This document shows, piece by piece, positions 20,469 to 37,569 of a stretch of DNA of 64,000 bases. Source of the DNA: Terriglobia bacterium (lineage in GTDB: Bacteria; Acidobacteriota; Terriglobia; Terriglobales; Acidobacteriaceae). Location: the NCBI GenBank assembly GCA_020073665.1, contig JAIQEU010000004.1:124001-188000 (forward strand). Direction: 5' to 3'. Made by a program: the position numbers and the translations under genes. Below the pieces are notes generated by a model, which worked only from the letters and a program-made list of their open reading frames with translations, had not been told where the DNA came from and did no database searches. The stretch's first letter is position 1. Each line of letters starts with the position of its first letter.

Positions 20469-20506
20469 CTCACAGCGGATTTTCGATTCGCCGATCAAAG
20501 AAGATC

Positions 20507-23194
20507 ATGGACAGCACTCGCTGGGAACGAATCCAGACCTTGTTTCACGGTGCAGCGGATCTTCCCCGGCCCGAGCAAGCGGCGTTCTTGCAAGCCGCTT
20601 GTGGCGAGGATGCCGGGCTTATGGCGGACGTGCTAGCCATGCTGGAGGAGGACGCCCGTGGCGCCTCCCTGCTGGACCGCGACATGGCCCAGGTCGCGCA
20701 TCAGGTGCTTGAGGAGGCGAGTTCCCCCCTGCCTTTCAAGGAATTCGGCCCTTACCGGCTGAAAGAAATGCTCGGCGAGGGCGGAATGGGCGTGGTGTAT
20801 CTCGCCGAGCGCAAAGATCTGGGCAGCCTGGTCGCCGTCAAAGTTCTGCGCGATGCCTGGCTCTCACCCGCCCGTCGCGAACGCTTCGCCAGCGAGCAGC
20901 GCACTCTGGCCCAGCTCAATCACCCTTCCATCGCTCGGCTCTACGATGCGGACACCTTGGACGACGGGACGCCGTGGTTCGTCATGGAATACGTTGAAGG
21001 CGTCCCGCTCACTGAATACTGCCGTCAGCACCAGTGCCCGGTCGAGGAGCGTCTGCAGCTATTTGGCTCAGTGTGCGAGGCTGTTCAGTACGCTCATCAG
21101 CATGCTGTTATTCACCGCGACCTCAAGCCGTCGAACATCCTGGTGAAGCGGGATGGAACCGTGAGGCTGTTGGATTTCGGGATCGCCAAGCAGATCGAGG
21201 GCCTGGGCGGGCAGCCGGGGCAGACCCGAATCGACCAGACGCTGACGGGCCTGCGCCTGATGACCCCCGCGTATGCGTCCCCCGAACAGATTCGCGGCGA
21301 CGGAGTGGGGATTCAAGCCGACGTCTACTCCCTTGGCGTCATTCTCTATGAGCTGCTGGCTGGAGAGCGGCCTTTCGATTTTTCCAACCTCACGCCCGGA
21401 GAAGCCGAAACCCTCATCGTGGAGCACGAACCGGCGAAGCCTTCCTCCACGGCCACCCGGATTGCGGAATCGCCCGGCGCGGATGTTCCCATCGTCAGCA
21501 AAGCTGCATGGGACGACCTGGACGTGTTGTGTCTCACCGCAATGCACAAGGACCTGCAGCGGCGTTACCGCTCGGTAGAAGCGTTGATCCGCGATGTGGA
21601 TCACTATTTGAAGGGCGAGCCGCTGGAGGCTCGGGCTGATACCGTCCGCTACCGTCTGGGCAAGTTCGTAAAGCGCAACCTGCGAGCTGTGTCAGTGGCA
21701 GCTCTGGTGTTCACCGTCGTCGTCGGTATGGCGATCTTCTTCACCGTGCGGCTTGCCAAAGCCCGCAATGCTGACCTGGCGGAGGCGGCGCGGACCGAGC
21801 GCATCCAGCGCTTCATGCTCAATCTGTTCCAGGGTGGCGATGAAGCCGCTGGTCCCTCGGACACCCTCCGCGTGGTCACTCTTCTCGACCGCGGCGTGCA
21901 GGAGGCGCGGGCGCTGGATTCAGATCCCGCCGTGCAGGCCGAACTCTACGAAACTCTGGGGAGTATTTACCAGAAGCTGGCCAAGTTCGATCGCGCGAAT
22001 TCGCTGCTGGATTCCGCTTTGCAGCAGCGCACCCGGCTTTTCGGGCCAGACAGTCCCGAAGTCGCCCAGAGTCTGGTGGCGCTGGGGCTGCTGCGGTCTG
22101 ATCAGGCAGAGTACGAGGATGCCGAGCGGTTGGTCCGTCGTGGACTCGATATCAGCAAGCGCAAGCTGCCATCCAGCCACCCGGCGGTAGCGAAGGCTAC
22201 GTTCGCACTGGGAAAGGTGCTGGAGAATCGGGGCGCCTACGACCAAGCCGCACACGAGCTTGAGGAAGCGGTACGGCTGCAGTCATTGCCAGGCGCCGTA
22301 ACCACCGACCTCGCCGCCAGCCTCTCCGAACTGGCAAACACCCACTTCTACGCTGGGCACTACGACGTCTCTGATTCTCTCAATCGTCAAGTGCTGGCAA
22401 TGCAGCGCCAGCTCTACGGCGAACGGCACCCGCTGGTGGCCGATACGCTCATCAACCTGGGGAGCATCCAATTCCAGCTGGGACATTACAGCGATGCCGA
22501 GCGCTACAACCGGCAAGCGTTGGACATCGTGCAATCCTTCTACGGCAAGGATCATCCCGAAACCGCCGACACCATGACCATCCTCGGCCAGTCGCTCACC
22601 TCTCAGCAGCGCTTTGATGAGGCATCGGCACTCCTTCACCAGTCCTTGACGATTCTGGAGCACGTTTATGGGCCAGTGCATCCTCGGGTGGCATACGCGC
22701 TCAATGAGTTGGGTAACGTAGCCTTACGGCAGCGGAAGTTGGACGATGCCGAGGCAGACTTCAGCCGGGTGGTCGACATCTACCGGTCGGTCTATGGTGA
22801 CAACCACTACCAGATCGGCATTGCCCAGTCCAATCTGGGCGGCGTGTATGTAGAGCGCAAAGAGTACGTTCAGGCCGAGCGGCTTTTCCGTGAAGCGCTG
22901 CTGCGCTATAGCAAAACGCTTCCCGCCGATCACCTGAACGTGGGGGTCACACGGATCAGGCTCGGAAGCGCGCTCGTCGGCGAGCAACGCTACGCGGAGG
23001 CGGAGGTAGAGAGTCGCGCTGGCTACGTCATCTTGACCAAGCAAACCAGCCCCAAGGTGAAATGGCTGCAGACCGCGCGCAAGGATCTGGCGACCGAGTA
23101 CGAAGCCTTGCACCAGCCGGAGGCCGCGGCCAAGTTTCGAGCCGAGTTGGCCGCCACCGAGGGCAAGACGCCCGAGTTGGCCAGCAAAAAATGA
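20507..23194 (+). CDS. Transmembrane Ser/Thr protein kinase with C-terminal TPR repeats
   Basis: An 895-residue Hanks-type kinase. Residues 1-60 are the helical leader usual in sigma-linked kinases (STRWERIQTLFHGAADL). The kinase domain spans about 80-370: glycine loop GEGGMGVVY, catalytic HRDLKPSN near 202, DFG in LLDFGIAK near 222, and APE-like YASPEQ. A membrane segment lies near 390-412 (VAALVFTVVVGMAIFFTV). From about 465 to the end are tetratricopeptide repeats of the 42-residue type (HPLVADTLINLGSIQFQLGH and similar), placed outside the membrane. ATG 20507 is chosen because the longer frame covers the sigma gene. Confidence 0.9.
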   Translation: MDSTRWERIQTLFHGAADLPRPEQAAFLQAACGEDAGLMADVLAMLEEDARGASLLDRDMAQVAHQVLEEASSPLPFKEFGPYRLKEMLGEGGMGVVYLAERKDLGSLVAVKVLRDAWLSPARRERFASEQRTLAQLNHPSIARLYDADTLDDGTPWFVMEYVEGVPLTEYCRQHQCPVEERLQLFGSVCEAVQYAHQHAVIHRDLKPSNILVKRDGTVRLLDFGIAKQIEGLGGQPGQTRIDQTLTGLRLMTPAYASPEQIRGDGVGIQADVYSLGVILYELLAGERPFDFSNLTPGEAETLIVEHEPAKPSSTATRIAESPGADVPIVSKAAWDDLDVLCLTAMHKDLQRRYRSVEALIRDVDHYLKGEPLEARADTVRYRLGKFVKRNLRAVSVAALVFTVVVGMAIFFTVRLAKARNADLAEAARTERIQRFMLNLFQGGDEAAGPSDTLRVVTLLDRGVQEARALDSDPAVQAELYETLGSIYQKLAKFDRANSLLDSALQQRTRLFGPDSPEVAQSLVALGLLRSDQAEYEDAERLVRRGLDISKRKLPSSHPAVAKATFALGKVLENRGAYDQAAHELEEAVRLQSLPGAVTTDLAASLSELANTHFYAGHYDVSDSLNRQVLAMQRQLYGERHPLVADTLINLGSIQFQLGHYSDAERYNRQALDIVQSFYGKDHPETADTMTILGQSLTSQQRFDEASALLHQSLTILEHVYGPVHPRVAYALNELGNVALRQRKLDDAEADFSRVVDIYRSVYGDNHYQIGIAQSNLGGVYVERKEYVQAERLFREALLRYSKTLPADHLNVGVTRIRLGSALVGEQRYAEAEVESRAGYVILTKQTSPKVKWLQTARKDLATEYEALHQPEAAAKFRAELAATEGKTPELASKK

Positions 23195-23241: not shown

Positions 23242-24483
23242 TTAGTGAGAAGTGACCTTCTGGACGATTTCGCTGATCTCGGCTGGAGAGAGTAGTTGGG
23301 CAGAGTTCTTAGCCGCCTGCATTACGGCCTGCACCACCTCGGGTGGACTGGGCAGGCCGCGGGTAGTCAGGTAATACACCACGTTGGAGTTTCCCGACAT
23401 CGGGCCGATCTCGATCTCCTGCACCCGCCCCAGCCATGTGGCTGGGACACCGGAATAGACGCGATCAGCGAGCCAGCGGTCACCTTTCTTCTGCGCCTTG
23501 ATCACCGCCGCGGCATGGACCCCGGTGGCAGTGCGGAAAGCATCGCGGCCCACCACCGGACTGTTGGCCGGCATCCGCACGCCGGTGGCCTGCGATACCA
23601 GTTCCGCATATTCCATCAACCGGCTGAGGTCGTCGTCGCGCATCCCGAGAAGCTTCAGGTTGACCAGTAACTGTTCGATCGGGGTATTGCCCACGCGCTC
23701 GCCGATCCCGAGTGCGGTGCCGTGAACGCGGGTGGCGCCAGCCTCGATGGCGGCCAGCGTGTTGGCCATGTCGAGAGCGCGGTCGCGATGGCCGTGCCAG
23801 TCAATCCCGATCTCCGCGCCGGAATCCTCCACCAGTGCCTTTACCCACGAGACCAGGTTCCAGACCGCATCGGGTACCGCAGCCCCGCAGGTGTCGCAAA
23901 GGCAGAGCCGTTTGGCACCCGCTTCAATGGCTGCCGTAAACAAAGTCTTCAAGTGCTCCGGGGACGAGCGCACCGTATCCTCGGTTACGTACATGACGTC
24001 GAGACCCTGCCGGACCGCGAACGTGATGGCCTCGCGCGTGTGGCGAAGAATATCTTGCAGCGACCACTCTTCCGCGTACTGGCGGATCGGGCTGCTGCCG
24101 ATGAACAGACATGCTTCGATGGGAACGCCGGTCATCTGGGAAACGTCCGCGATCGGCTGGATATCGACGATCATGGTGCGAGCGGCGCAGTTGGCGCGGA
24201 TGTGCAGATGTCCACGGTCAATCTCGCGGCACAGGGCGGTGACAGCTTCACGCTGGCGCGGCCCCGCACCCGGCAAGCCGACATCGGCAGTTTCAATGCC
24301 CAGGCTCTCCATGAGATGGAGGATCGCGACTTTGCTGTCGAGGGAAGGATCCTTGACCGATGGACTCTGCAAACCATCGCGCAAGGTCTCATCGTCGATC
24401 ATCACATGATTGGGCCAGCGGGCGCGGCGGGGGCCGCGCTCGGCCCAGTCAAATACCAGCTCATTCCTGTTTGCGCCGGTCAT
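23242..24483 (-). CDS. DRE-TIM metallolyase (LeuA/homocitrate-synthase-like), specificity unknown
   Basis: A 413-residue TIM-barrel enzyme of the 2-isopropylmalate/homocitrate synthase and HMG-CoA lyase superfamily. IDDETLRDGLQSP near residue 30 carries the catalytic Arg35-Asp36. WHGH near 230 supplies the two metal-binding histidines. GIGERVGNTP matches the synthase consensus. It has no separate C-terminal leucine-feedback domain, unlike standard LeuA. It is the last gene of the benzoyl-CoA reductase operon, 28 bases after the TPR gene, and no leucine genes are nearby. It could condense acetyl-CoA with an oxo acid (a Re-citrate-synthase-like role would fit the acetyl-CoA released by ring degradation); that is inference. 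Confidence 0.8.
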   Translation of the reverse strand: MTGANRNELVFDWAERGPRRARWPNHVMIDDETLRDGLQSPSVKDPSLDSKVAILHLMESLGIETADVGLPGAGPRQREAVTALCREIDRGHLHIRANCAARTMIVDIQPIADVSQMTGVPIEACLFIGSSPIRQYAEEWSLQDILRHTREAITFAVRQGLDVMYVTEDTVRSSPEHLKTLFTAAIEAGAKRLCLCDTCGAAVPDAVWNLVSWVKALVEDSGAEIGIDWHGHRDRALDMANTLAAIEAGATRVHGTALGIGERVGNTPIEQLLVNLKLLGMRDDDLSRLMEYAELVSQATGVRMPANSPVVGRDAFRTATGVHAAAVIKAQKKGDRWLADRVYSGVPATWLGRVQEIEIGPMSGNSNVVYYLTTRGLPSPPEVVQAVMQAAKNSAQLLSPAEISEIVQKVTSH

Positions 24484-24511
24484 GGCGGTCCGTTCTCAAT
24501 CAGAAAGACAG

Positions 24512-25249
24512 TTACTGAGCGACTTTTTGCGTCTGGCAAAACTCGCGGGCTCGACGGAGCAATTCCTTGGCTCCTGCCTCGTCGTTTTGCGCGCGGCGAA
24601 TCATGGCCAGGTGGTACAGACTGCTGACTTCTCCGATGGCTTCCTCGCAGCTGTGCTCGAATTCGCGGGCTGCGGATTCGGTGTCTCCCTTCCTCTCGTG
24701 AATCACGCCCAGGTGGTAATGCGCCATCAGGTATTCCGGAGTGAGCACCAGAGACTGTTCGAAGTGCTCGCGAGCTTCCTCCAGCCGGCCGGAGTGGAAC
24801 ATCGCGATCGCAAGCCGGTAGTGAGCGGCGCGGTAGTTCGGGTCGATTTCCAGGCAACGCTGGAATGCCTGTGCGGCCTCCGGCATGTTGCCGCGGTGAT
24901 ACCAGGCGACACCGAGGTCGTAATAGCCCAGCACGAAGCAGGGAGCATGCTTGAGGGCCCGTTGGTAGTGCGCGATGGCGAGATCGAGGGTGCCCTGGTG
25001 GAAGTGAAGCGTCCCCAGCAGATGATTCGCGAGCACATGATCGGGCTCCGCCTGCAGAAGCCTTTCCAGTTCGCGACGTGCCTCCTCGCCGCGCCCTTCC
25101 GATTCGTGAACCAGCGCCAGCAGAAGCCGCTGGTCAATGTAAGCATCCCGCAGGAAGAGGCCGCACTCGGCGCAGAACTTGTCGTTGGCGGCGGCCATTC
25201 GTCCGCAGCGGGTGCAGCGTTGTGTTGTAACCGGGGACGCATTCGGCAT
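24512..25249 (-). CDS. Zinc-ribbon TPR protein
   Basis: A 245-residue protein. The N-terminus has two CxxC pairs (CTRCGRM, CAECGLF), a zinc ribbon. Residues about 38-230 hold five or six tetratricopeptide repeats, such as YYDLGVAWYHRGNMPEAAQA and AHYRLAIAMFHSGRLEEARE. It has no catalytic motif or signal peptide, so it is cytoplasmic and probably a scaffold or assembly factor. It sits inside the benzoyl-CoA operon between the SDR and the LeuA-like gene. An almost ideal Shine-Dalgarno (GGAGGTGATC) precedes the ATG, so strong translation is expected. The partner is unknown. Confidence 0.8.
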   Translation of the reverse strand: MPNASPVTTQRCTRCGRMAAANDKFCAECGLFLRDAYIDQRLLLALVHESEGRGEEARRELERLLQAEPDHVLANHLLGTLHFHQGTLDLAIAHYQRALKHAPCFVLGYYDLGVAWYHRGNMPEAAQAFQRCLEIDPNYRAAHYRLAIAMFHSGRLEEAREHFEQSLVLTPEYLMAHYHLGVIHERKGDTESAAREFEHSCEEAIGEVSSLYHLAMIRRAQNDEAGAKELLRRAREFCQTQKVAQ

Positions 25250-25274
25250 GGATCACCTCCGTAGAAACAGCAAT

Positions 25275-26003
25275 TCAATAAGCCCCAAGATACTGGCCGC
25301 CATCCACCCGGAACAGTTGTCCCGTGATCCGCCGGGCGCCGGGGCCGCACAGGAAGCGCACCGCAGCAGCCACATCGGAGGGATCGAGGAGTTGGCCAAT
25401 GGGGCTCTCGGCCGCTGCCGCTTCCTGAATTTCTTTGGGCAGAGCTTCCGTCAGCGGAGTCCGCACCCATCCGGGTTCCACTACGTTCACCAGAATCCCG
25501 AAGCGGCCGGTTTCGCGGGCCACGCTCTTGGCCAATCCCAGCAGGCCTGCCTTGCTGGCTGAGTAGGCCGAGGTGCCAAACTTTCCGCGCGACCCGTTAA
25601 TCGATCCGATAAGCACAGCGCGTCCACCGGAACCCTGGCGCATTATCGGAATGGTGTGCCGCAGCAGCAGGAAGGCACCGCGAAGATTCACCGACTGAAT
25701 GAAGTCCCAGTCATCCACGGCCAGCTTCCAAACCACGCTCTCGCGCGAGACCCCTGCGCCGTGGATGGCGACGTCAATCCGGCGGTGAGCCGCGACCACG
25801 TTGGCGATGGCCGCCTGCACCGACGCATCATCGCGCACATCGCACTTCACCCATAGGGTTTCGGGCCCCTTTGGTGGAGACACGTCCAGCGAGACGGCGA
25901 CAGCGCCGGCAAGGCGCAGGGCCTCAAGGATGGCAGTCCCGATACCTCCCGACCCGCCGGTGACGACAGCTACCTGGCCCGACAATTCGGAGTTCGCGTT
26001 CAT
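25275..26003 (-). CDS. SDR-family oxidoreductase in benzoyl-CoA operon (BzdZ-like position)
   Basis: A 242-residue short-chain dehydrogenase. Cofactor loop TGGSGGIGTA near residue 13, HGAGVS, the active-site Ser in IGSINGS, and YSASKAGLLGLAKS (Tyr-x3-Lys). The C-terminus GQLFRVDGGQYLG is typical of FabG-like members. ATG 26003 lies four bases after dch. In Azoarcus the bzd operon also has an SDR gene (bzdZ) of uncertain role. A candidate substrate is 3-hydroxypimelyl-CoA or the 6-hydroxy ring intermediate; the sequence alone does not decide. Confidence 0.85.
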   Translation of the reverse strand: MNANSELSGQVAVVTGGSGGIGTAILEALRLAGAVAVSLDVSPPKGPETLWVKCDVRDDASVQAAIANVVAAHRRIDVAIHGAGVSRESVVWKLAVDDWDFIQSVNLRGAFLLLRHTIPIMRQGSGGRAVLIGSINGSRGKFGTSAYSASKAGLLGLAKSVARETGRFGILVNVVEPGWVRTPLTEALPKEIQEAAAAESPIGQLLDPSDVAAAVRFLCGPGARRITGQLFRVDGGQYLGAY

Positions 26004-26007
26004 TCTC

Positions 26008-26793
26008 TTACCTGGACGCCGTGCTGGGCTCTGCCCATTGTGGCTGGCGCTTTTCCAGAAAAGCCCGAATCCCTTCCACCGCATCGGGCTCGGCCATGAG
26101 GTCGCGCAAATACATGGACTCCAGGACTGGCAGGTCCGATTCTAACGCTCGTAGTGTGGCCAGCCGGATGGCATTCGCCGCGTGGCGAAGAGCGGCGGGC
26201 GAGCGCGGAAGGAAGTCGCTTCGCAGCCAGCTAGCGAGGGCCGTATCCAGTTCACCTGCTGGTGCTAGACGAGACACCAGGCCGCATTGCGCTGCGGCGG
26301 TGCCCGACCACGTATTTCCAGTGAGGACCAGAGCGGCGGCGCGGGCCGTGCCGAGTTTCACCGGCAGCAGTGCCGACGCCGCCGGAGGAAAGACTGCCAG
26401 CTTGATTTCGGGACAACCGAATTGGGCGTCCTCTTCCGCAATGATCAGGTCGCAACCCAGCGCCAGTTCGAATCCACCGCCCAGACATTGGCCGCGGACT
26501 GTGGCAATGGTCGGAGCGGGCACCCTCGCCAGCAGGAGCAGAAGCTCGCGCAAGTCGCGCAGGGTCTCATGAATTTGCTCAGGCAGATGTTCGGTTACGC
26601 TGGCACCATAGCTGAAGCTGGGACCGTCCGCGCCTACCACCACGGCTTTCAGATCATGTCGCGACGAGAGTTCAGCGAGGATACAGCGGATCTCGCCCAT
26701 CATCGCCCGGTCGAGGATGTTCGCCTTGGGGGCTGCCAGGACGACTTTCGCCACCTCTCCATCGCCCAGGAACTCGAGCCTGGTTCTTGGCAT
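26008..26793 (-). CDS. dch: Cyclohexa-1,5-diene-1-carbonyl-CoA hydratase (enoyl-CoA hydratase family)
   Basis: Adds water to the dienoyl-CoA made by benzoyl-CoA reductase, giving 6-hydroxycyclohex-1-ene-1-carbonyl-CoA. The 261-residue crotonase-fold protein starts MPRTRLEFLGDGEVAKVVL. It has the oxyanion-hole segments SYGASVTEHLPE and RGQCLGGGFELALGCDLI, and FGCPEIKLAVFPPAA in place of the usual EITLGLFPG-type stretch. The gene lies two bases after oah and four before the SDR gene. The specific assignment rests on motif resemblance to Dch/BzdW/BadK-type proteins plus its place among the other pathway genes; a general enoyl-CoA hydratase is the alternative. Confidence 0.85.
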   Translation of the reverse strand: MPRTRLEFLGDGEVAKVVLAAPKANILDRAMMGEIRCILAELSSRHDLKAVVVGADGPSFSYGASVTEHLPEQIHETLRDLRELLLLLARVPAPTIATVRGQCLGGGFELALGCDLIIAEEDAQFGCPEIKLAVFPPAASALLPVKLGTARAAALVLTGNTWSGTAAAQCGLVSRLAPAGELDTALASWLRSDFLPRSPAALRHAANAIRLATLRALESDLPVLESMYLRDLMAEPDAVEGIRAFLEKRQPQWAEPSTASR

Positions 26794-26795
26794 AC

Positions 26796-27899
26796 CTATC
26801 CACCCACCTTTATTTCCTGGTCCACCCAGGGGGCGATCTCTCGGATCAGGTCTTCATTCCAGCGCGCACCCTGTGCCAGGCGCTGTCGCAACAGGATGAA
26901 GTTGGCCTCGCGTTCATTCTTGGTTCCGTAATGGAAAGCGCGGAATCCCGCATTGGCTTCGGTCATCATGTTGAGGGCGAGCCATGCGCGATTGGTTTCG
27001 CGGTTCCGGTCCCAATGCTCGAGTTTGTGCTTGCGCAGGCTTTCCAGCGTCTTGGTGAGGCAATCGGGCATGGTGTAGAGCAGGCGCGTGCACAACTTTT
27101 CTACGGCTTCATCGAGCAGCGAGAGGTCGGTGACCGCTTTCGCCATCTGAGCCTTGGCTTGCAGCAGCGCTTCGCCTTTTTTCCATTCGCCTAAGACGAT
27201 TCGGCCGAATTCGTCCAGCAGTCGATCAGTGACGACCATCGGGTTGGCGATCCAGTTGCCATCCAGTCTCAGAACCGGGACGATCTCGGTCAGGCCGCCG
27301 AGGTAGTAGAAGCGGTGCGCGCTCCACGGCTCGCACATAGTGGCGCTGTACATGGCGTGTTCAATACCCACAAATAGCGGCAGGAAGTCGGTCGCGCCTC
27401 CATCCGGCGCGGAGCCGTGCTTGGGGCCGGCCTGGCTGAAGAGGGCAAGATCGCTGGCCACCGAGAAGTCACAGGCAGTGCCGATCTCCTGCCCGCCGCC
27501 AACCCTGATCCCGTTTACGCGGCAAATCACCGGCTTGTCGCTTTGTAGCACGGTCGAGACCATGTCGTTGAACAATCGCATGTACTGCCGGTACTCCGCC
27601 GGCGCTCCGGCGTAGACTTCTGCATACTCACGCGTGTTCCCACCCGCGCAGAACGCGCGTGTACCAGCGCCCGTTAGGACGACGGCGACGGCCGCGCGGT
27701 CGTTGCTCGCCTCCCGCAAGGCAAGAATGATCTCCTTGAGCATGGTCGTTGTGTATGCATTCAGTTCCTTGGGATTGTTCAGCGTGATCCAAACGTTATG
27801 CAGTCCGTCGACAGGCTGGCCGGAGTGATCCAGGGCTGGACGGTGTTCCACAAGAATTTCACGCGGCTCGAAGCACTCGACAAGATTATGGTTCTTCAT
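26796..27899 (-). CDS. oah: 6-oxocyclohex-1-ene-1-carbonyl-CoA hydrolase (ring-opening)
   Basis: Opens the alicyclic ring by hydrating and hydrolysing the C-C bond, yielding 3-hydroxypimelyl-CoA; this is the marker enzyme (Oah/BamA/BzdY) of benzoyl-CoA degradation. The 367-residue crotonase-fold protein has the family's diagnostic stretches: VWITLNNPKELNAYTT, AFCAGGNTREYAEVYAG, EYRQYMRLFNDMVS, GGGQEIGTACDFSVA, AGPKHGSAPDGGATDFLP, MYSATMCEPWSAH and TNRAWLALNMMTEANAGFRA. It is about 100 residues longer than ordinary enoyl-CoA hydratases, as expected. The ATG overlaps the had stop (ATGA). Confidence 0.95.
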   Translation of the reverse strand: MKNHNLVECFEPREILVEHRPALDHSGQPVDGLHNVWITLNNPKELNAYTTTMLKEIILALREASNDRAAVAVVLTGAGTRAFCAGGNTREYAEVYAGAPAEYRQYMRLFNDMVSTVLQSDKPVICRVNGIRVGGGQEIGTACDFSVASDLALFSQAGPKHGSAPDGGATDFLPLFVGIEHAMYSATMCEPWSAHRFYYLGGLTEIVPVLRLDGNWIANPMVVTDRLLDEFGRIVLGEWKKGEALLQAKAQMAKAVTDLSLLDEAVEKLCTRLLYTMPDCLTKTLESLRKHKLEHWDRNRETNRAWLALNMMTEANAGFRAFHYGTKNEREANFILLRQRLAQGARWNEDLIREIAPWVDQEIKVGG

Positions 27900-29017
27900 G
27901 GTTGCCTCAAACTGATTGGTGGTACCAGGATGGCGCGGCGGCGCAGCGCATGCTGCCCAACCGCTTGCAACACTTCAGCCGCCGATTCCAGGGGATGCTG
28001 TTCGACGTACGGTCCAAGAGTGACTTTCCCCTCAAGCACCAGTGCCAGTGCGCTGGGATAGTGTTCCGGGGGACAGCCCCAGTTCCCCCGCGCGACGGCG
28101 TCAAATGCCATCAGGTTGGAAAGCCGCAACTCAATCGCTTTCGGCGAGTAGCCGACGACGGCCAAGTAGGCTCCGTGGTCGAGGAGGGCAAATGCAGTGG
28201 CCTGTCCCGCGGGTGTACCACTGGTTTCAAAGATCTTCAGTCCGATCCCGCGCCGGCCTGATTGTTTGACGAATCCTCGCACCGCCGCTTTAATTTCCTT
28301 CTCGCTCGATTGGCTGGCATCCAGCGTGAGAGCAGCACCGTGGGCAGCAGCCATCTCCAGGCGGTTTCGATCAATATCGATGGCGATCACGGCAGCTCCG
28401 AGCGCGGCCGCAATCTGCACACCGAAGCCACCGATTCCCCCCACGCCCGTAAACACGGCCACATCGTCTGATCCCAGCTGAGCTCGCCGGATCGCTTCGA
28501 AAGGAGTCGAGACTGCATCGGCCACGACCGAGAGCATGGCAAGAGTAATGCCGGCCGGCAAGGGACGAGGCACAGGGCACAACCCGCGGCCCGGCACGAT
28601 CACATGCGTGGCGAATCCGCCGTCGCCATCGTTACCTGGCATGAACTGTCGGCGGCAAATAGTCGCCCGTCCTGACTTGCAGGCAGCGCACTCGCCGCAG
28701 GGAATCACGGCAGGAACAATTACGTCCCGGCCCAGCCACTCCTGAGCCCGTTCTCCCGCCGCCACCACTAGGCCGGAAATTTCGTGTCCCAGAACCAGCG
28801 GCAGCGGATGCCGCGTAGGTACGCCGTCCAGGGCGTAGCCGATGTCGGTGTGGCAAACCCCGCACCCGGCCACCTGCACCACGACCTGATCTGGCGCGGG
28901 CTCCAGCGGAGGCAATTCCACCCGCTGCAACCGCTGTCCTACGGCGTTAAGCCGAAACCCGTATGCTCCCTGGATTGGAGCTGGTTGGTGAATGACTGCG
29001 CTATTGGCAAGAGACAT
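27896..29017 (-). CDS. had: 6-hydroxycyclohex-1-ene-1-carbonyl-CoA dehydrogenase
   Basis: Oxidises the 6-hydroxy intermediate to the 6-oxo compound with NAD+. A 373-residue zinc alcohol dehydrogenase. CGVCHTDIGYALDG and GHEISG carry catalytic-zinc ligands; CGECAACKSGRATIC holds the four structural-zinc cysteines; GVGGIGGFG is the NAD loop. MPGNDGDGGFATHVIVPGRG and NWGCPPEHYPSAL resemble Had/BamQ. ATG 29017, seven bases after bcrD, is chosen; the longer frame would overlap bcrD by over 100 bases. Confidence 0.9.
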   Translation of the reverse strand: MSLANSAVIHQPAPIQGAYGFRLNAVGQRLQRVELPPLEPAPDQVVVQVAGCGVCHTDIGYALDGVPTRHPLPLVLGHEISGLVVAAGERAQEWLGRDVIVPAVIPCGECAACKSGRATICRRQFMPGNDGDGGFATHVIVPGRGLCPVPRPLPAGITLAMLSVVADAVSTPFEAIRRAQLGSDDVAVFTGVGGIGGFGVQIAAALGAAVIAIDIDRNRLEMAAAHGAALTLDASQSSEKEIKAAVRGFVKQSGRRGIGLKIFETSGTPAGQATAFALLDHGAYLAVVGYSPKAIELRLSNLMAFDAVARGNWGCPPEHYPSALALVLEGKVTLGPYVEQHPLESAAEVLQAVGQHALRRRAILVPPISLRQP

Positions 29018-29024
29018 GATGTCC

Positions 29025-29852
29025 TCACGAGACCTGGGAAACGCTCGCCAGCTTTTCCTTGATGGCCAGACGCTTGTGGCCGAGTAACGCTGCTCCCAGA
29101 GCGCACACAAAATCACAGTGGGGCGGAACATTAACTTTTGTCGTCAAACGGTCTTCGAGTGCTTTGACGATTCCGTTCTGCAGGGCCACGCCGCCGATGA
29201 ACGTGACCTCACCCTCGATTCCGACCCGCTTCAGCAATCCTACAGCGCGTTCCGCGAGAGACTCGTGGATGCCGCGCAGGATGTTCTCCACCGTGACACC
29301 CGCACTTACGTGGTTGATGATTTCGCTTTCAGCGAGGACGGCGCACACACTGCTGATGGGCTGCGGATTCGTGGCCCGCATGGACAATGGGCCGACATCC
29401 TCAATGGGGATTTCCAGGTACTTGGCCGCGCGGGCGATGAACATTCCCGAACCGGCGGCGCACTTGTCGTTGGTCTTGAAGGTTCTTACCTTGCCGGTAT
29501 CGCGCATGGTAATCGAGCGCGTAGATTGGCTGCCGATATCCAGAACGCAGCGAGATGCCGGAAACAGGTATTGGGCGCCGCGTGCGCCGCTGGTAATTTC
29601 GGTGATCTGGATGTCGCGGAATCCCACGCCGTAGCGGCCGAATCCGGTGGTTGCTACATAATCCAACTCTTCCCGGGTCACGCCGGACTCCAGCAGACAC
29701 GCCTGTAGAGCTTGCATTGCGGCTTCTTCCACATTAATGCCGCTCTTCGCCCGGCCGCGTCCCAGCACCGTAAAACGAGAGGAGTCGTCCTGCTGGAGCA
29801 GAACTGCCTTCGTAAAGCCGGTTCCGCAATCAATGCCCGCTACCAGCCGCAT
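29025..29852 (-). CDS. bcrD: Benzoyl-CoA reductase ATPase subunit (BcrD/BzdQ-like)
   Basis: One of two ATP-binding activator subunits that drive low-potential electrons to the ring-reducing module. 275 residues of the BadF/BadG/BcrA/BcrD family: phosphate loop GIDCGTGFTKAV, TTGFGRYGVGF, TNDKCAAGSGMFIA with Cys131 and AVLAESEI after Cys170, which should bind the bridging [4Fe-4S] cluster, and a second phosphate motif FIGGVALQNG. The segment LDIGSQSTRSI differs from the GGQD-type sequence of its partner. ATG 29852 overlaps bcrA by 23 bases. Confidence 0.9.
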   Translation of the reverse strand: MRLVAGIDCGTGFTKAVLLQQDDSSRFTVLGRGRAKSGINVEEAAMQALQACLLESGVTREELDYVATTGFGRYGVGFRDIQITEITSGARGAQYLFPASRCVLDIGSQSTRSITMRDTGKVRTFKTNDKCAAGSGMFIARAAKYLEIPIEDVGPLSMRATNPQPISSVCAVLAESEIINHVSAGVTVENILRGIHESLAERAVGLLKRVGIEGEVTFIGGVALQNGIVKALEDRLTTKVNVPPHCDFVCALGAALLGHKRLAIKEKLASVSQVS

Positions 29853-30669
29853 GTTCGGGCCTCCAGGTTGAGGATTCGAAACTCTGGTCCATTTTTTCCA
29901 GCGCGAACACGGCCGCCCCAATCGCGCCCATGAAGTGGGCGTCTGGGCTGATTTGCATGGTGGTTCCCAGGACCTCTTCGAGCGCTCGCACCATGCCACT
30001 ATTGCGAGCTACGCCGCCAGTCATGGTGATCTGTGGCTCGATGGGGACGCGACGGGCGAGCGAGAGGGTTCGCTTGGCAATTGCCAGATGCACGCCACCC
30101 AGGATGTCTTCGGCCTTTTTGCCTTGGGCCAGGTAGGAAAGAATGTCGGACTCAACGAAAACCGTGCAGACAGTCGTGATCCTCACCGGGCGCGACGCGC
30201 GCAGCGACAGCGGGCCAATCTCATCCAGCCCGATGCCCATGACATCGGCCGCATTCGCCAGGAAGCGGCCAGTCCCGGCAGCGCACTTGTCATTCATAAC
30301 GAAGTCCATGACTTGCCCGTCTCCGCCGACGCTGATCGCCTTGGAGTCCTGTCCACCCATGTCGATGACGGTGCGGGTGGAGGGATAGACGAAGTGCGCC
30401 CCGCGGGCATGACAACTGATCTCGGTCATCTGGGTGTTTCCGAAAGAGATGTTGTAGCGGCCGTATCCCGTACCCACCACGAACCCCACTTCGGGTGTGG
30501 CAATCCCAGCGCTATGGCAGGCAGCCAGGAAGGCGTTTTCAGCCGCCTTGCGCACGTTGGCTCCGGTATCCACCAAGGCGCGAGCGAGGATTTCGCGGCC
30601 GCCATTTTCCGCCATGACCACTGCCTTGGTCTGGGTCGAACCCACGTCCACGCCAGCGGCAATTCTCAT
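29830..30669 (-). CDS. bcrA: Benzoyl-CoA reductase ATPase subunit (BcrA/BzdP-like)
   Basis: The second ATP-hydrolysing activator subunit. 279 residues: GVDVGSTQTKAVV (phosphate 1), GTGYGRYNISF, IDMGGQDSKAI (phosphate 2), NDKCAAGTGRFLANA with cluster ligand Cys129, Cys168 in VCTVFVES, and TGGVARNSGMVRALE (adenosine). Thauera BcrA is much longer (over 400 residues as I recall), whereas Azoarcus BzdP is near this size, so the reductase resembles the Azoarcus type. AGGAGG is seven bases before the ATG. A 2-hydroxyacyl-CoA dehydratase activator is the family alternative; the adjacent had-oah-dch genes argue against it. Confidence 0.9.
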   Translation of the reverse strand: MRIAAGVDVGSTQTKAVVMAENGGREILARALVDTGANVRKAAENAFLAACHSAGIATPEVGFVVGTGYGRYNISFGNTQMTEISCHARGAHFVYPSTRTVIDMGGQDSKAISVGGDGQVMDFVMNDKCAAGTGRFLANAADVMGIGLDEIGPLSLRASRPVRITTVCTVFVESDILSYLAQGKKAEDILGGVHLAIAKRTLSLARRVPIEPQITMTGGVARNSGMVRALEEVLGTTMQISPDAHFMGAIGAAVFALEKMDQSFESSTWRPEHAAGSGH

Positions 30670-30685
30670 GGTCCTCCTCGTCGAG

Positions 30686-31954
30686 CTAAACCGCCGTAGC
30701 GGTCATCTTGGAATGTTCGAGCGCTTCGAAGAACGCGTCGATGCGGTTCCTGGTCTGCGCTTCCGCAAAGTAGCGGGGATCTTCGAGATCCGATTCGATG
30801 TAAAGCGTCGGAATGCCGAGGGTGCGCGTGGCGTAATCTCGCATGTCCCCCTGCCCCGCGGAAAAGAGCCGGCAGCTCTTAACGAAATGGATGATCAGGC
30901 CATCGGCATTCCAGTCCTTCACGTAGCGGCCGATCTGTTCGTAGCGCTGCAGGAAATTACGGTTGGTAACGTTCTGGGCCAGCATATGCATCGCCACAGA
31001 TTCGAACGGGTGGTCGGGATCGTGGCGGGCGCCAAACTCCCACAGCCCGCCCACCGTGGAGTAAGTTGAGGCCACAGTACAGGCCTTCCATTTGGCAAAC
31101 ATATCGCGGAAGGTCCGGAAAAAGGGATAGGGAGGTGGGCCTTCAATGACCAGGCGGAACTTCTCCTGGTCAAAGACTCCCTGGCCAGCCGCGACCTTCG
31201 CCTGCATCTCGTCGAGAGCGGCGCGGAAGAAGTTGAGTCCTTCCGGGGTGGCGCGATAGACGTAGAGCGGACCCATCAAGGTGATGGCGTCAAAGTAGGC
31301 GTCGAATGGAGAGGGCGAACGGCGCGCCAGATGCTTAATTTGGGACCAGAGCTCCTCGACCTGTGCCGAACATCTCACAGCTTGAACGAAGCGATCGTAA
31401 TCGAATTTCTTGCCCGTAATGTTTTCGAGGATGGTAACCAGTTCTTTCAACTGCCGCACGACGTAATCAATATCGTCGCGGGAAGGCTCATCCAGACGAA
31501 GAAATGGGACATCCAGCACGTAGAGACGGGATCCGGTCAGGACAGCCGTGTGCTCGAACCACTTCACGTAGGTGTTGCAACCCACGAAGTTGCACAGCAC
31601 TAGCGATGGCTTGGGAAGCTTGCCCCCGGTAGGCGTGATGCCCTTCAGGTAGCAGCCGATGTCGGCTTTGACGTAGGCACAGTTGTCCGCGGCGTAGCCG
31701 ATTTCTTCGGCCGCCAGGATGGGATCGAGCGACTGGTGCCGGATTGCCAGCTGCAGCGCGTTCACTTCCGGGTAGATCGGCACCACCCCAAACGCTTCCA
31801 GGAGTTCGACGCAATTGCCGGAAATCATCAGGGACGCGGTATGCGGCGTGCCCGTCTCGGCTGCCTGGTTCAGCCGCTCATACCACTTCTGCATCAGCTC
31901 TTTCTGCAGCTGATGAATGTTTCCGCGGTACTCGGTATGCCTGACATCCGCCAT
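30686..31954 (-). CDS. bcrB: Benzoyl-CoA reductase ring-reducing subunit (BcrB/BzdO-like)
   Basis: Forms with the C subunit the module that binds benzoyl-CoA and transfers single electrons to the ring. 422 residues of the HgdB/BcrB/BcrC (2-hydroxyglutaryl-CoA dehydratase D-component) family. Cysteines suited to [4Fe-4S] binding are at 92, 101, 121 and 126 (CNFVGCNTYVKWFEH) and 361 (FVKSCRLFSAGQGD). YPEVNALQLAIRHQ is typical of the N-domain. The gene starts 34 bases after bcrC and ends 16 before bcrA. Confidence 0.9.
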   Translation of the reverse strand: MADVRHTEYRGNIHQLQKELMQKWYERLNQAAETGTPHTASLMISGNCVELLEAFGVVPIYPEVNALQLAIRHQSLDPILAAEEIGYAADNCAYVKADIGCYLKGITPTGGKLPKPSLVLCNFVGCNTYVKWFEHTAVLTGSRLYVLDVPFLRLDEPSRDDIDYVVRQLKELVTILENITGKKFDYDRFVQAVRCSAQVEELWSQIKHLARRSPSPFDAYFDAITLMGPLYVYRATPEGLNFFRAALDEMQAKVAAGQGVFDQEKFRLVIEGPPPYPFFRTFRDMFAKWKACTVASTYSTVGGLWEFGARHDPDHPFESVAMHMLAQNVTNRNFLQRYEQIGRYVKDWNADGLIIHFVKSCRLFSAGQGDMRDYATRTLGIPTLYIESDLEDPRYFAEAQTRNRIDAFFEALEHSKMTATAV

Positions 31955-31988
31955 GCTGTCACCATCCTCAAGGCTCTGGTGCCCGCGC

Positions 31989-33143
31989 TTAGTCGAAGAC
32001 CAGCGACTCTACGAAGGTTTCCACTTCAGTCCGCACGCGATCGAAGGTGAACTGCTTTTCCTCGAATTCCAGCAGAAGGTGCGGAACTCCGATTTCATCC
32101 AGTTTCTTCTTGAACAAAACGTAGTCGAAATATGCCGGCTCACAGAACTTGGCAATCAGGAACAGGACAGCATCCGCCCGTGCCTGCTTCACCTTGGTGG
32201 CTAGGCCCTCCCAACGCGGGGCCCGGAAGTCATGCCGGACGGAGGAGTACACCGCCCGGTTCACATAACTCTCGGCCAAGGCATGAATGGGATCATCTTC
32301 GGTTGGGACGTCTTCCACGAACCAGCTGCGTCCGATCGCAAAATCGTCGTCCACCACGTAGCAACCAACGTCTTCCACCAGTTTGATCAGGTCCAGCGGC
32401 GGCTGCTCGCAGAATGCGCCTTCCGCCACTATGCGAATGGAATCGCGCGGCCGGCCGCTGCGACTCGGGAGTTGCGCCAAGGCATCCTGCAACAGCTGGT
32501 TGTGCTCCTCCACAGGGATCACGTTCCCGGCGCGGACCAGCACGTAGGATTCCCAGGCCCGCAGCAGGTGCGGATTCTGGCAGCGGAAGCGATACAGATC
32601 GCGGGTCAACTGGCGGTTGCGGTTATAAAGAAGGATGGATTCATTCAAGGCCTCAGCAGTGACCGGCCGTCCCCCCATCCGCTCCAGTTCCTGAATCAGG
32701 CGGCGATACTCGCTGGCCAGGAAGTCGATGCTGGCCGCGGAACTGGGATTGTGCGGTAGATGGAGGAAATCCGTATAGAGTGCAGGAAAGTTCCGCTTCA
32801 TGACGAAGCAGAGATTGCGGGCGGAGTCACAGATCGAACTGAAGAGCACGCCATCAAACACCGTCAGGTGCTCGCGTAACCCCATCTCCAGCGTGGTCTT
32901 GATGATAGAGCAGATGAACGAACCGAAGCGCGCGTCGGCGTGCTGGATGTCCAGGCGGTCTCCCCCACCGCTCAGGGCCACGGGCAGCATGCCGGCGGCA
33001 TGGATGATTTCTGCGGGAGCGTAGACCGGGAAGTACCCTATGACTGCGCCGCCGGGGTGCTGGTCTTTCCACTGGCGGACGCGGGCGAAGTCGAGGTCCG
33101 AAACCAGGTCCGTGCCTATATCGAACGTTCGTTCGAAGTCCAT
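31989..33143 (-). CDS. bcrC: Benzoyl-CoA reductase ring-reducing subunit (BcrC/BzdN-like)
   Basis: Partner of the B subunit and first gene of the operon. 384 residues, the same length I recall for characterised BcrC/BzdN proteins. Motifs: GYFPVYAPAEIIHAAGMLPV at residues ~36-55, Cys78 in GSFICSIIKTTLEMG, Cys105 and Cys112 in SSICDSARNLCFVMKRNFP, and Cys334 in FLIAKFCEPAYFDY. These are the conserved cluster-ligand positions of the family. The ATG has only a weak upstream ribosome site. A TGTGA-N6-TCACA palindrome lies 34-52 bases upstream of it. Confidence 0.9.
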   Translation of the reverse strand: MDFERTFDIGTDLVSDLDFARVRQWKDQHPGGAVIGYFPVYAPAEIIHAAGMLPVALSGGGDRLDIQHADARFGSFICSIIKTTLEMGLREHLTVFDGVLFSSICDSARNLCFVMKRNFPALYTDFLHLPHNPSSAASIDFLASEYRRLIQELERMGGRPVTAEALNESILLYNRNRQLTRDLYRFRCQNPHLLRAWESYVLVRAGNVIPVEEHNQLLQDALAQLPSRSGRPRDSIRIVAEGAFCEQPPLDLIKLVEDVGCYVVDDDFAIGRSWFVEDVPTEDDPIHALAESYVNRAVYSSVRHDFRAPRWEGLATKVKQARADAVLFLIAKFCEPAYFDYVLFKKKLDEIGVPHLLLEFEEKQFTFDRVRTEVETFVESLVFD

Positions 33144-34652: not shown

Positions 34653-35312
34653 CTAACGCCGTGGCTTCCGCCGAGTCTGAGCCTGTTCCTTCTTTGTCGC
34701 CCATCGACAGTTCTCCGGCGAGTACGGGCCATTCGGGTCACGGCGGTCTATGGTTTTTCCCTCCGGCCTTCGTCCCATGTCTTGCACGAAGGTCGAGAAG
34801 CTCCTCCGCCATCGGTCACTGACGTAGATTCCTCGTCCTCCGTAATCGTCGTACTGGTCATGGTTTTTGTTTGTGCACCTGAGAATCATCTGCCGAAAGC
34901 TGGTGTACGTATCCGCCAAACAGACACAGCGTTTGGTGCCTGCGCGTATCTGCTTTGTCGTGGCGGAGAAGCAGCGGTGGCGGCATATCTTACAAACGAC
35001 GATCCATTGTGTTGAAGGCTTCGAGTCAGGCTTGTCGTCAACCTTCCCCAAGACGAACAAGTTTCCGAATACCTTCATGAACATTCTTATGCGACGGTCC
35101 TTGGCAACTACGGCTCTGAGGCAGCCACAACTCTTGCTGTGCCCACTGCGAAGGTCTGCGCCTCGGACAAGGCATTCCGCTCCGCAATTGCATTGACACC
35201 GAAACACGACACGTCCTGCCGCGTCGCTGCCCGAGCGTTCGATCACAGTCAAACGGTCGAATTTTGACCCAACGGGCAGGTGACCACGCCGACCAGAGGT
35301 GCTGAACTTCAT
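34653..35312 (-). CDS. Phage-like zinc-finger/HNH-AP2-type protein
   Basis: A 219-residue protein of the kind found in phages and prophages. The N-terminus ([14 protein letters not shown], then CQCNCG and [12 protein letters not shown]) is a zinc-binding module. A middle segment has further CxxC-like pairs (CKICRHRC). The C-terminus ([20 protein letters not shown], followed by [12 protein letters not shown]) is the conserved tail seen in phage HNH/AP2-type homing-endonuclease relatives. No full H-N-H triad could be assigned with confidence, so nuclease activity is uncertain. Confidence 0.6.
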
Positions 35313-35877
35313 TGCAAATGAGCTTACGGTGACGACCTTCAGGAAGTCTGCTTACCGTCGTCACTCGGAACTGCCGACAGTTGCGTAGGTAGCTTGGTAA
35401 GTGATTGATAACAAAGAAACGACGCTTTTGCACGATCTAGCCTGGTCCCTCGTGGGTAGTTCACCGTAAGTACATGATTCTTAACATTTTAACGCAATTA
35501 GATACCTAGGTCAGAGCCGCTCGGCGATATGGGTATTGGTATCGCTTGGTGGTGTTCTGCCTGGTACCTAGTCTGCTAAGGTCCGAAATGCTTGGCCTCG
35601 GACCCCTCTCCGACAATTTCTCCCTTTGCCGTCCCCTGTCACAGGTTCCGTGTAACTATCTAACAATAAACAACTTGATGAAGATGACTCGTTAGCATTG
35701 TGAGGCAGCTCGGAGTCAATTCGGACTCGAATAATGTCCGGTTTTTCGGGGTGCATGCGTGGCGATTCTTCTGGAAAACGAAGTCCACATCCCAGACCGT
35801 ACCCCGATCCCTCAGGGCTGCGACGGCACATAGGAAAGGCACGGTGGTCAGCTCGCTGCCCTGGGCGGTCTAGCTCA
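35313..35877. other. Island stretch without a convincing gene
   Basis: About 565 bases between the phage-like gene and the DUF262 gene. A short open frame (35568-35900, minus) has low-complexity content and no recognisable domain, and overlaps the end of the DUF262 gene. The region is AT-richer than the rest (for example near 35470-35500 and 35650-35700). Nothing else seen. Confidence 0.5.
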
Positions 35878-37569
35878 TCAAGAGGCGGCGTCTTCGCCAC
35901 TTAAGTCCGGCTGGCTTGGGCGACTCAACTCTGGAAGGCCGCTGCTGAGCGCCGCGAGATACTTGTTTGCCTCGCTTGCCAGACGTGAAGCTCTCGCTTC
36001 CAGAAAACCGTCGTACTGCTCAACGGTAAAATCGGTGCGGTTCCAGTTGACGAATTGTTGATCGAGCTTCTCTTTAGTTATCGAATATTTGTCGAGGTAC
36101 TTCATCGGGTCCTGGTTGCTGATGCGAATGTTGATGTCCGGCCCGATGACGGCGATATTCGCCAGCGAGTCGATCTTTTCCGATTCGACTTTCTTGTGCA
36201 GGAATTTTTGTGGGTAGATGTGATGCCACTGCGGACGAAAATCTGTCAACAACTCCTTGCCCTCAAATCCGAGTCGAGTGCCGACCTTGTCCCAGTCTTG
36301 TGCTCCGTTCTTGTGAACCAGCAAGTAGAGCAAAAATCGCCAGAACTTTCCGTCTGTGTAATCTCTCTTGAAATCATCTGCCTCGATTGGCTGATTCACG
36401 GGGAATCGCCTGAGTAGTCGAGAGACTGTTTCGGATAAACTACTGCTGGTCGCTACGTCCTTCAGGTCCTCCTCAAGAGCCGTGGTGCTGCCTCCGCTAT
36501 AGCGCCCGAATCGTGACGCCTGAACAAACCAGTAGAAAGCCGCGTCAAAGCCGCCCTCCGCAGGGAACCGATCCAACAATGCTACGAGGGTAACGAGAGC
36601 GGCTTGGGTCGGCAAAGGATCATCGGAAAGAACGCCATAGGCTTGCAAGCGGTGTATTGTGTTCTTCCATCCTGCTTGACACTTCTTCCACGCTGGTTCG
36701 ATCTGTTCGCGTCGCCAGAATCCTTCATCGATTTCCTTAAACCGAACCTTCTTGATACCCACCGCAGTCAAACTCCTGAACAACAGGTTTGGGTCAAGAT
36801 GGAAGCCCGAATCGGCGAGCACATTCAAGAACGGCAGGAACTCGTCACGCACCCAACCGGGGTTCTTGGAAGCGACAACGCCCAGGTAAATGTCGGCTTC
36901 CGTGACTCGTGTCCCACGACTGTTCAGCCGCGAAAAGATTTCGACCACATCTTCCAATTCGTGATTAACCGTGACGCTCAGGATGTCCTTCTCGCGGATT
37001 TTGCGAACACGGTCAAGCCGTGCATACACCTCCATTGCGTCCATACCGTCACACAACCCCTGAACCTTGATTTCCTTTGCGAGGCTAACAAGGGTCTTCT
37101 GATCAGCATCTCGACCGACCACATCCAGGACAAGTAGGCGGCTGAGCGAAATATAGCGATCCCCTTTCGTCTTGCGGATCGCGGCATTAGCCACAAGAAA
37201 GTGCGCTTCATTTTTTGCAGCGACATCAAACCGTATGTCATATCGCTTGAGTACCTTGTTCCAATCGTCTGCCGAGGCCCACCAGTATGGCTTGCGGCCA
37301 AAAAGAATAGCCAGCGCAGTTGTACGTTGCTGTCCATCGACGATCCAAAGCGATGGCGTTGCACCGTCCTTTGCGACTCGTTCCTCTTGGTGAGTCTCGC
37401 TGTTCCAGAGGAGCAGACTCCCAACGGGGAAATCCAGCCACAACGATTCTGCCAAATCCCTGACCTGCGTCGCCTTCCAGACAAAACCCCGTTGAAATTC
37501 CGGCACGCTCCACTTGTGTGACACTGCCCTATCAACGAGTTCCCAGATTTTGATCGGTTCCAGAGCCAT
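35878..37569 (-). CDS. DUF262/DUF1524 (GmrSD-like) nuclease-family protein
   Basis: A 563-residue protein. The N-terminal DUF262 domain has VPEFQRGFVWK near residue 22 and the signature IVDGQQRTTAL near 79, the ParB-like nucleotide-using motif. The C-terminal DUF1524-type HNH region has WHHIYPQKFLHKK and SLANIAVIGPDINIRISN. GmrSD, BrxU and SspE relatives with this pairing restrict modified or phage DNA (family knowledge). It is the last gene of the five-gene minus-strand operon, 48 bases after the CBS-HEPN gene. GAGGAG is seven bases before the ATG. Confidence 0.8.
   Translation of the reverse strand: MALEPIKIWELVDRAVSHKWSVPEFQRGFVWKATQVRDLAESLWLDFPVGSLLLWNSETHQEERVAKDGATPSLWIVDGQQRTTALAILFGRKPYWWASADDWNKVLKRYDIRFDVAAKNEAHFLVANAAIRKTKGDRYISLSRLLVLDVVGRDADQKTLVSLAKEIKVQGLCDGMDAMEVYARLDRVRKIREKDILSVTVNHELEDVVEIFSRLNSRGTRVTEADIYLGVVASKNPGWVRDEFLPFLNVLADSGFHLDPNLLFRSLTAVGIKKVRFKEIDEGFWRREQIEPAWKKCQAGWKNTIHRLQAYGVLSDDPLPTQAALVTLVALLDRFPAEGGFDAAFYWFVQASRFGRYSGGSTTALEEDLKDVATSSSLSETVSRLLRRFPVNQPIEADDFKRDYTDGKFWRFLLYLLVHKNGAQDWDKVGTRLGFEGKELLTDFRPQWHHIYPQKFLHKKVESEKIDSLANIAVIGPDINIRISNQDPMKYLDKYSITKEKLDQQFVNWNRTDFTVEQYDGFLEARASRLASEANKYLAALSSGLPELSRPSQPDLSGEDAAS

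Follow-up and report, generated by a model that had tools for sequence, protein, structure and literature searches.

The 64,000-nucleotide stretch analysed here (the window; positions 124,001 to 188,000 of contig JAIQEU010000004.1 in the Terriglobia assembly GCA_020073665.1) holds ten co-directional minus-strand genes running from 33143 to 23242, in the order C, B, A, D, had, oah, dch, sdr, tpr and leu. With a probability of roughly 0.78, judged from sequence comparison, this operon encodes an ATP-dependent class I aryl-CoA reductase, most likely a benzoyl-CoA reductase, together with ring opening by Dch, Had and Oah; the reductase would form a lineage of its own, probably sister to the MBR type, and probably came from an amidohydrolase cassette within the phylum, displacing a reductase of the BCR type. 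The subunit set, the cluster and active-site residues, the identity of Had and Oah and the presence of a benzoate-CoA ligase on another contig were read directly from the sequence, and the substrate and activity of the reductase are predicted. BCR, MBR and BZD are the three types of class I benzoyl-CoA reductase named in the available text of PMC11971306. In the proposed pathway, subunit B would hold benzoyl-CoA at a three-cysteine [4Fe-4S] cluster with a conserved glutamate, the dienoyl-CoA product would be hydrated by Dch and then oxidised by Had, and Oah would open the ring to 3-hydroxypimeloyl-CoA, which a short-chain dehydrogenase/reductase (SDR) may oxidise further. The reductase would have left an amidohydrolase-associated cassette within the phylum and landed upstream of had, displacing the BCR type of a resident operon of the form had-oah-(dch)-[bcrCBAD]-(sdr-tpr-leu).

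The first-pass annotation had described four reductase subunits, had, oah, dch and genes for an SDR, a tetratricopeptide repeat (TPR) protein and a LeuA-like enzyme, and Pfam and NCBIfam searches confirmed all ten at their coordinates. The best Pfam matches, all over the gathering cut-off, were two HGD-D, two BcrAD_BadFG, a zinc-dependent alcohol dehydrogenase, two crotonases, an SDR, a TPR and an HMGL-like family, and the successive intergenic gaps measured 34, 16, −23, 7, −4, 2, 4, 25 and 28 bp. The two catalytic subunits are C (31989..33143; MbdN/BcrC-like, 384 residues, HGD-D at 241 bits, with the cysteine pattern described below) and the substrate-binding B (30686..31954; MbdO/BcrB-like, 422 residues, HGD-D at 226 bits). 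They are followed in adjacent genes by two ATPase subunits, the electron-activating A (29830..30669; 279 residues, a short form without the N-terminal part of BcrA, BcrAD_BadFG at 223 bits) and D (29025..29852; 275 residues, 189 bits), the gene for D overlapping that for A by 23 bp. The nearest solved relatives of all four were MBR subunits, ahead of the parts of 2-hydroxyacyl-CoA dehydratases: MbdN (9g87_B, 313 bits) for C, followed by HadC (188 bits) and BzdN (129 bits); MbdO (232 bits) for B, with HadB second; MbdQ (9gai_D, 329 bits) for A; and MbdQ, MbdP and HadI (220, 185 and 175 bits) for D. In NCBIfam, benzoyl-CoA reductase models were among the best matches of each of the four subunits, yet every BCR and BZD equivalog cut-off was failed. 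For TIGR02259–02261 and TIGR02263 the scores were 337 against 421 bits (C), 312 against 487 (B), 215 against 578 (A) and 198 against 313 (D), and for BzdN, BzdO and BzdQ they were 133 against 454, 125 against 449 and 185 against 380 bits. Subunit A matched positions 214–432 alone of the 432-position BcrA model TIGR02259, so that the long BcrA form was not found. A BCR-type operon of the same family (L065) passed all four BCR cut-offs, and the BCR models therefore work in this phylum; assignment to the plain BCR or BZD type was rejected on the failed cut-offs. The earlier call of a class I, ATP-dependent reductase was upheld by the hidden Markov models, the nearest solved relatives, the residues and the tree, and clustering with 2-hydroxyacyl-CoA dehydratases was not seen.

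The active-site residues of BzdO are given as Glu65, Cys95, Tyr97, Cys128 and Cys380 (PMC11971306, available text). Their counterparts in subunit B, E63, C92, Y94, C126 and C361, were present in 14 of 14 window-type rows and were matched in the BCR, MBR and BZD rows too, the glutamate match of the BZD type coming from two metagenome rows, as the aligned stretch of BzdO begins past that position. An AlphaFold2 model of subunit B (14 sequences, mean predicted local distance difference test score of 73, low-confidence loops round the active site) retrieved MbdO (9g87_A) first in a Foldseek search, with a template-modelling score of 0.84, followed by HadB and BzdO. In subunit C, the cysteines C78, C105, C245, C261 and C334 were invariant in the 14 window-type rows and common to the BCR and MBR rows, one BCR row being gapped at C334; C245 and C261 were absent from the BZD and HadC rows. 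Subunit B carries three more invariant cysteines, C48, C101 and C121, of which C121 has a cysteine counterpart in HadB only and the other two have none in any other group, the rows compared being reductases of Had-Oah operons. Placed beside the known systems, the window's enzyme shares with MbdNOPQ of Thauera chlorobenzoica (PDB 9g87, 9gai) the four subunits with a short A and the five-cysteine subunit C. With BcrCBAD of the Thauera kind, the type found in the sister operons, it shares the order C-B-A-D and the presence of Had and Oah in the same operon, but its subunits fail the four equivalog cut-offs and its A is short. BzdNOPQ of Aromatoleum CIB (PDB 8s02; PMC11971306, available text) is alike in superfamily and in the three-cysteine site with glutamate of the substrate subunit, but differs in its identity of about 26% and in the absence of C245 and C261.

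Had (27896..29017) scored 452.1 bits with TIGR03201, over the equivalog cut-off of 338.65, and Oah (26796..27899) scored 532.5 bits with TIGR03200, over the cut-off of 464.45; among the best 60 of 185 matches in a search of the PDB, Oah met crotonases of other functions. For the Dch-like hydratase (26008..26793), TIGR03189 was the best family at 205.8 bits, under the equivalog cut-off of 292.5. The earlier description of the operon as complete holds from benzoyl-CoA to the ring-opened product; the operon encodes neither the ligase nor ferredoxin and lacks most of the genes for the lower pathway.

In a tree of concatenated C and B subunits (55 rows, the BCR rows being metagenome sequences typed by model and score, those of Thauera aromatica and Ferroglobus not being among them), the window type formed a clade of 14 rows supported at 100/100. 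The MBR (5 rows), BCR (32 rows) and BZD clades were likewise supported at 100/100; nine duplicates of named contigs were left out of the trees. The MBR clade, borne on a long stem, comprised MbdNO of Thauera, three KSB1 loci and one acidobacterial locus, and the window-type catalytic subunits did not fall inside it; they joined it at 98/93. Identities between window type and MBR were 39–45% in C and 33–37% in B, those between window type and BCR 32–43% and 37–43%, and those within the window type 65–93% and 78–99%. These data suggest a separate lineage of class I benzoyl-CoA reductase, probably sister to the MBR type. It is read here as a putative fourth lineage, so far found only in Acidobacteriota, other phyla not having been searched with its profile. 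MBR-type reductases were also seen in KSB1 and several acidobacterial families (L080, L107, L127, L170, L182, L186, L193 and L210). Two loci (L208, L209) carry a reductase of uncertain type, placed at 80/52, and that of L209 adjoins a 363-residue crotonase under the cut-off for both the Oah and BadI models.

The same backbone of genes was found with different reductases in the window's family. In 16 of the family's 30 Oah loci, counting the window itself, the window-type reductase lies upstream of had (C-B-A-D-had-oah), in 13 the BCR type follows oah (had-oah-(dch)-C-B-A-D), and the remaining locus (L161) is truncated by the end of its contig; four of the loci so counted were typed from incomplete sets of genes (L138, L159, L154 and L162). 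Both types are present in one genus (code g6). The dch gene is at its place in 13/16 window-type and 6/13 BCR-type loci, sdr in 12/16 and 10/13, and tpr with leu in 8/16 and 8/13, contig ends accounting for part of this variation. The order of the core genes is kept in relatives and is therefore not due to chance. Within the stretches read, had and oah stood without dch in L135, L141 and L139 and in the BCR-type L137, L143–L145, L147 and L149; in L135 and L141, the window's nearest relatives, dch is truly absent beside oah. The hydratase of such loci must be encoded elsewhere or have been replaced. When the window-type operons were held together as one clade, the grouping was not rejected by the approximately unbiased test, either with had and oah (42 rows, p-AU 0.40) or with had, oah, sdr, tpr and leu (23 rows, p-AU 0.47). 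The smaller tree dropped loci with fewer than four of the five genes, among them L134, L136, L140, L141, L142 and L152, all of which are in the had and oah tree. Reductase modules thus appear, from these comparisons, to have been exchanged beside a stable Had-Oah core.

The source of the window-type reductase was sought in 396 genomes of the phylum, in 30 genomes of the family and in the surroundings of the best 80 Oah loci with organism names. Its C profile was matched at E ≤ 1e-100 in 39 of the 396 phylum genomes. Apart from the two genomes in which the window type belongs to an Oah operon, a further ten scored 473–656 bits, and in six of these ten, as well as in G398 of the window's own family, the reductase adjoins an amidohydrolase (L200–L205 and L224; PF04909 in two tested loci, by similarity in the others). 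These cassettes mostly contain an SDR, and one also has Dch- and Had-like genes. The amidohydrolase was also found beside MBR-type reductases (L211, L213, L214) and, on the opposite strand, beside a BCR-type one (L215). No Oah over the cut-off was found in any of the 11 genomes with an amidohydrolase-reductase cassette (L200–L205, L211, L213–L215 and L224); the loci were picked by reductase profile, and the set is therefore not an unbiased sample. HxH is the usual metal motif at its position in such amidohydrolases; the 11 amidohydrolase rows, 73–85% identical to the first, read IDxMYYV there. In the L204 genome a MenB/BadI-like crotonase lies nearby and might open the ring instead of the amidohydrolase. 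The cassettes, which occur with three reductase types, represent a possible alternative route of ring opening. Among known systems, the ThnN amidohydrolase is put forward in a review as the leading candidate for the ring hydrolase that cleaves the first ring of naphthalene (PMC12016498, available text). BamU, from the benzoate cluster of Geobacter metallireducens, is a protein whose function that review gives as unknown, and it is listed with a raised value of 10.4 on benzoate (PMC1924859, available text). Both resemble the acidobacterial protein in lying beside aromatic CoA genes, a likeness of gene context; the window's operon has no amidohydrolase.

In a reductase tree of 52 rows, for which the BCR rows had been thinned to about a quarter beforehand, the window-type clade comprised 22 rows (100/99). 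The rows from Oah operons (14 rows, 95/87) were nested within it, and its base was formed by the amidohydrolase rows together with L206 and L207, which have neither partner; L202, of the window's own family, was closest to the Oah-operon rows (97/91). Among the 20 amidohydrolase and Oah-operon rows, one change of context suffices, and a single clade of the six amidohydrolase rows was rejected (p-AU 2.5e-6). It is tentatively proposed that the home of the window type was another dearomatising pathway, in which a conserved Amidohydro_2 protein without the first HxH stood in for Oah at ring opening, and that the reductase later moved into the Had-Oah operon of one family, displacing the BCR type; the proposal is possible rather than likely.

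A number of observations weigh against the reading of the operon given above. The Dch-like protein falls short of its equivalog cut-off, and dch is absent from its place in three of the 16 window-type loci of the family. The position of His131 of BzdO is occupied by tyrosine in the window-type and MBR rows and by phenylalanine in the BCR rows and MbdO. The six amidohydrolase rows had been named as a group for testing only once the tree had been inspected. One control archaeon passes the benzoate-CoA ligase model too, and 6 of 14 controls pass that of a 2-oxoacid:acceptor oxidoreductase subunit, so that neither is specific; moreover, the ligase is under the cut-off in 2/10 other carriers of the reductase and in G398, and over it in 4/29 non-carriers. 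A further group of such points concerns the trees. In the tree of C and B, the alternative groupings of window type with BCR and of MBR with BCR gave p-AU values of 0.032 and 0.078, and long branches meet; the sister group is therefore open, while the separate clade is firm. The backbone trees do not settle the branching between window-type and BCR-type groups, and the reductase type was counted as changing twice, so that a single replacement is allowed and not shown. Finally, a test with Oah only rejected the window-type clade (p-AU 1.2e-7). This test was superseded, since it left the nested fragment L055 outside the held group; with the fragment inside, the test with had and oah does not reject the clade. 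The additional tests are in line with a single clade and weaken the sister-group claim alone.

The strongest alternative, itself somewhat improbable, is that the enzyme is a divergent member of the MBR type acting on methyl- or otherwise substituted benzoyl-CoA and not on benzoyl-CoA. The position of MbdNOPQ as the closest solved relatives and the join at 98/93 are consistent with it, but MBR proper, which takes in KSB1 and some Acidobacteriota, is a clade of its own on a long stem, and the identity of subunit B to MBR lies below that to BCR. Moreover, the Had-Oah genes match those of the family's BCR-type operons, and a protein of the benzoate-CoA ligase family is present in the genome. Unlikely, and a little more so, is the capture of the window type by Had-Oah operons on several independent occasions instead of one. 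The open forks with their two counted changes, and the genus with both types, speak for such captures; against them, C-B-A-D stands before had in every window-type operon read, the reductases form one clade (100/100; 95/87 relative to the amidohydrolase rows) and the backbone tests did not reject a single clade. Most simply, the window type would have taken the place of BCR once, and whole operons would then have been exchanged to some extent.

The first-pass annotation had held the compact acidobacterial operon to be probably acquired by transfer; neither an exceptional occurrence nor a transfer from the known groups was supported. Across the phylum, 36 of the 396 genomes sampled had Oah over the cut-off, as did 30 of 398 in the window's family, and the pathway is patchy yet widespread in the phylum. 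Among the best 80 named loci, the Oah of other phyla was 60–67% identical to that of the window, against 73–79% for 18 acidobacterial loci and 74% for one locus without a phylum name (L109). Recent import from Betaproteobacteria was rejected on these identities, and a recent import of the whole operon from that group or any other known benzoate degrader is very improbable. The patchy presence in the family and the occurrence of both reductase types in genus g6 might be cited for it, but among the loci read tpr is confined to acidobacterial ones, leu has a single further occurrence, at 55%, in a locus of Acidimicrobiia, and the guanine-cytosine (GC) content of the operon, 59–63%, is that of most of the window and of the sequence to its left, save a low-GC island on the right. 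A search of plasmids with subunit C gave 11 records, with a best identity of 33.6%. Earlier transfers, whether into the phylum or between its members, are possible, because the presence of Oah is patchy and its identity to the window's, 45–78% among 21 aligned rows of the phylum, falls to 45–65% in other acidobacterial families. Least probable of all is a radical enzyme of the 2-hydroxyacyl-CoA dehydratase kind that serves some other pathway and stands beside Had-Oah by chance, a candidate rejected in spite of the common superfamily fold, the B-subunit cysteine ligands shared with HadBCI ((R)-2-hydroxyisocaproyl-CoA dehydratase, PDB 3o3m, an enzyme of other chemistry) and the second rank of HadC and HadB, as the Had parts score under MBR for all four subunits, HadC lacks C245 and C261, there are two ATPase genes, and the link to Had-Oah recurs in 16 family loci.

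The neighbourhood of Oah was read in 35 of the 36 phylum genomes (G253 was left out; genes under 90 bits were not listed). The reductase nearby was of the window type in 2, BCR in 17, MBR in 4 and BZD-like in 2, and it was partial or divergent in 3 (G046, G203, G246); none or an unclear one was seen in 7 (G041, G245, G223, G069, G393, G113, G274), class II reductases not having been searched for. Reductase genes occur on other contigs in G041 and G223, and just past the stretch read in G203. Loci with no class I reductase near Oah may contain a class II reductase. In eight Oah loci of Bacteroidota/Ignavibacteria (L073, L078, L082, L084, L088, L097, L104 and L117), BcrA/BcrD-like ATPases (BcrD alone in L084), a separate weak catalytic subunit (171–218 bits) and a further activase were observed near had-oah-dch, with no C subunit listed. 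LeuA-like relatives with 53–55% identity occur near Oah, with no reductase listed nearby, in L132 (Acidimicrobiia) and L173 (another acidobacterial family).

The remaining genes of the operon were assigned less specifically. The SDR (25275..26003) matched adh_short_C2 at 170 bits and models of the FabG/PHB type, none of the 25 listed being over its own cut-off; it may serve the lower pathway as a 3-hydroxyacyl-CoA dehydrogenase. The zinc-ribbon and TPR protein (24512..25249) matched TPR models, and its start, RCxRCG...DKFCxECG, a double CxxC, was invariant in 10 aligned rows. The LeuA/homocitrate-synthase-like DRE-TIM enzyme (23242..24483; HMGL-like at 149 bits) had homocitrate synthase as its nearest solved chain (6ktq, 126 bits) and an invariant DETLRDG motif in 15 aligned rows; no NCBIfam model was over its cut-off. 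Promoter and terminator scans of the operon gave no more matches than in shuffled sequence.

The anaerobic aromatic degradation suggested earlier is likely as a pathway. A benzoate-CoA ligase family protein was found on another contig of the host genome (616 bits against a cut-off of 375), and a 2-oxoacid:acceptor oxidoreductase subunit (569 against 483 bits) could supply reduced ferredoxin; BoxB over the cut-off was not found in the genome, the best score being 197 against 499 bits. Within the family, the ligase was over the cut-off in 9/12 carriers of the reductase against 4/29 non-carriers (Fisher p 3e-4, uncorrected for kinship and from genomes not randomly chosen). The ligase locus (L220, contig C10) has PcaB and PcaDC in its vicinity, both passing one of their models, as well as an iron-sulphur subunit of the type II dimethyl sulphoxide reductase family, also over the cut-off, and two clusters of molybdopterin enzymes. 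These neighbours suggest aerobic and anaerobic use of aromatics in one organism.

The host genome (5.42 Mb, 62 contigs), from a family that includes Ca. Sulfotelmatobacter, is acidobacterial, as the first-pass annotation had proposed from the context. Such a host is in keeping with the flanking genes, namely those for an outer-membrane barrel receptor that begins with a carboxypeptidase-regulatory segment (10627–14100) and for a kinase-TPR protein (20258–23194). In the low-GC island adjoining the operon (52–57%; 34653–47903 of the window) lie genes for a GmrSD-type protein, for a protein with a CBS domain and for a type III methyltransferase beside a protein that matches restriction enzymes only weakly. 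The island also has two serine recombinase genes, of which the second overlaps a tRNA-Pro gene (47827–47903), and the direct repeats inside it are only short and imperfect.

The operon is real and recurrent in Acidobacteria, and ring-reduction operons in yet another phylum were to be expected; the separate lineage of the reductase, together with the apparent exchange of modules, is the unexpected part. Beyond the first-pass annotation, the reductase belongs neither to BCR nor to BZD and lies outside the MBR clade, and the sister operons carry a BCR-type module. Neither a class I benzoyl-CoA reductase operon in Acidobacteriota nor the window type is described in the available text, supplements aside, of the open-licence literature searched (including PMC10936416, PMC4268860, PMC4992971, PMC10803450, PMC12016498, PMC1924859, PMC2907700, PMC8099898, PMC10116835, PMC9418001 and PMC12329716), and the curated NCBIfam models of BCR and BZD score the window type under their cut-offs. 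The phylum is common in soil and peat, and a fourth branch within it would extend the range of places where ATP-dependent aromatic ring reduction is sought. The amidohydrolase cassettes offer a testable alternative to Oah, and the same backbone with different reductases amounts to a natural swap experiment linking reductase sequence to substrate range.

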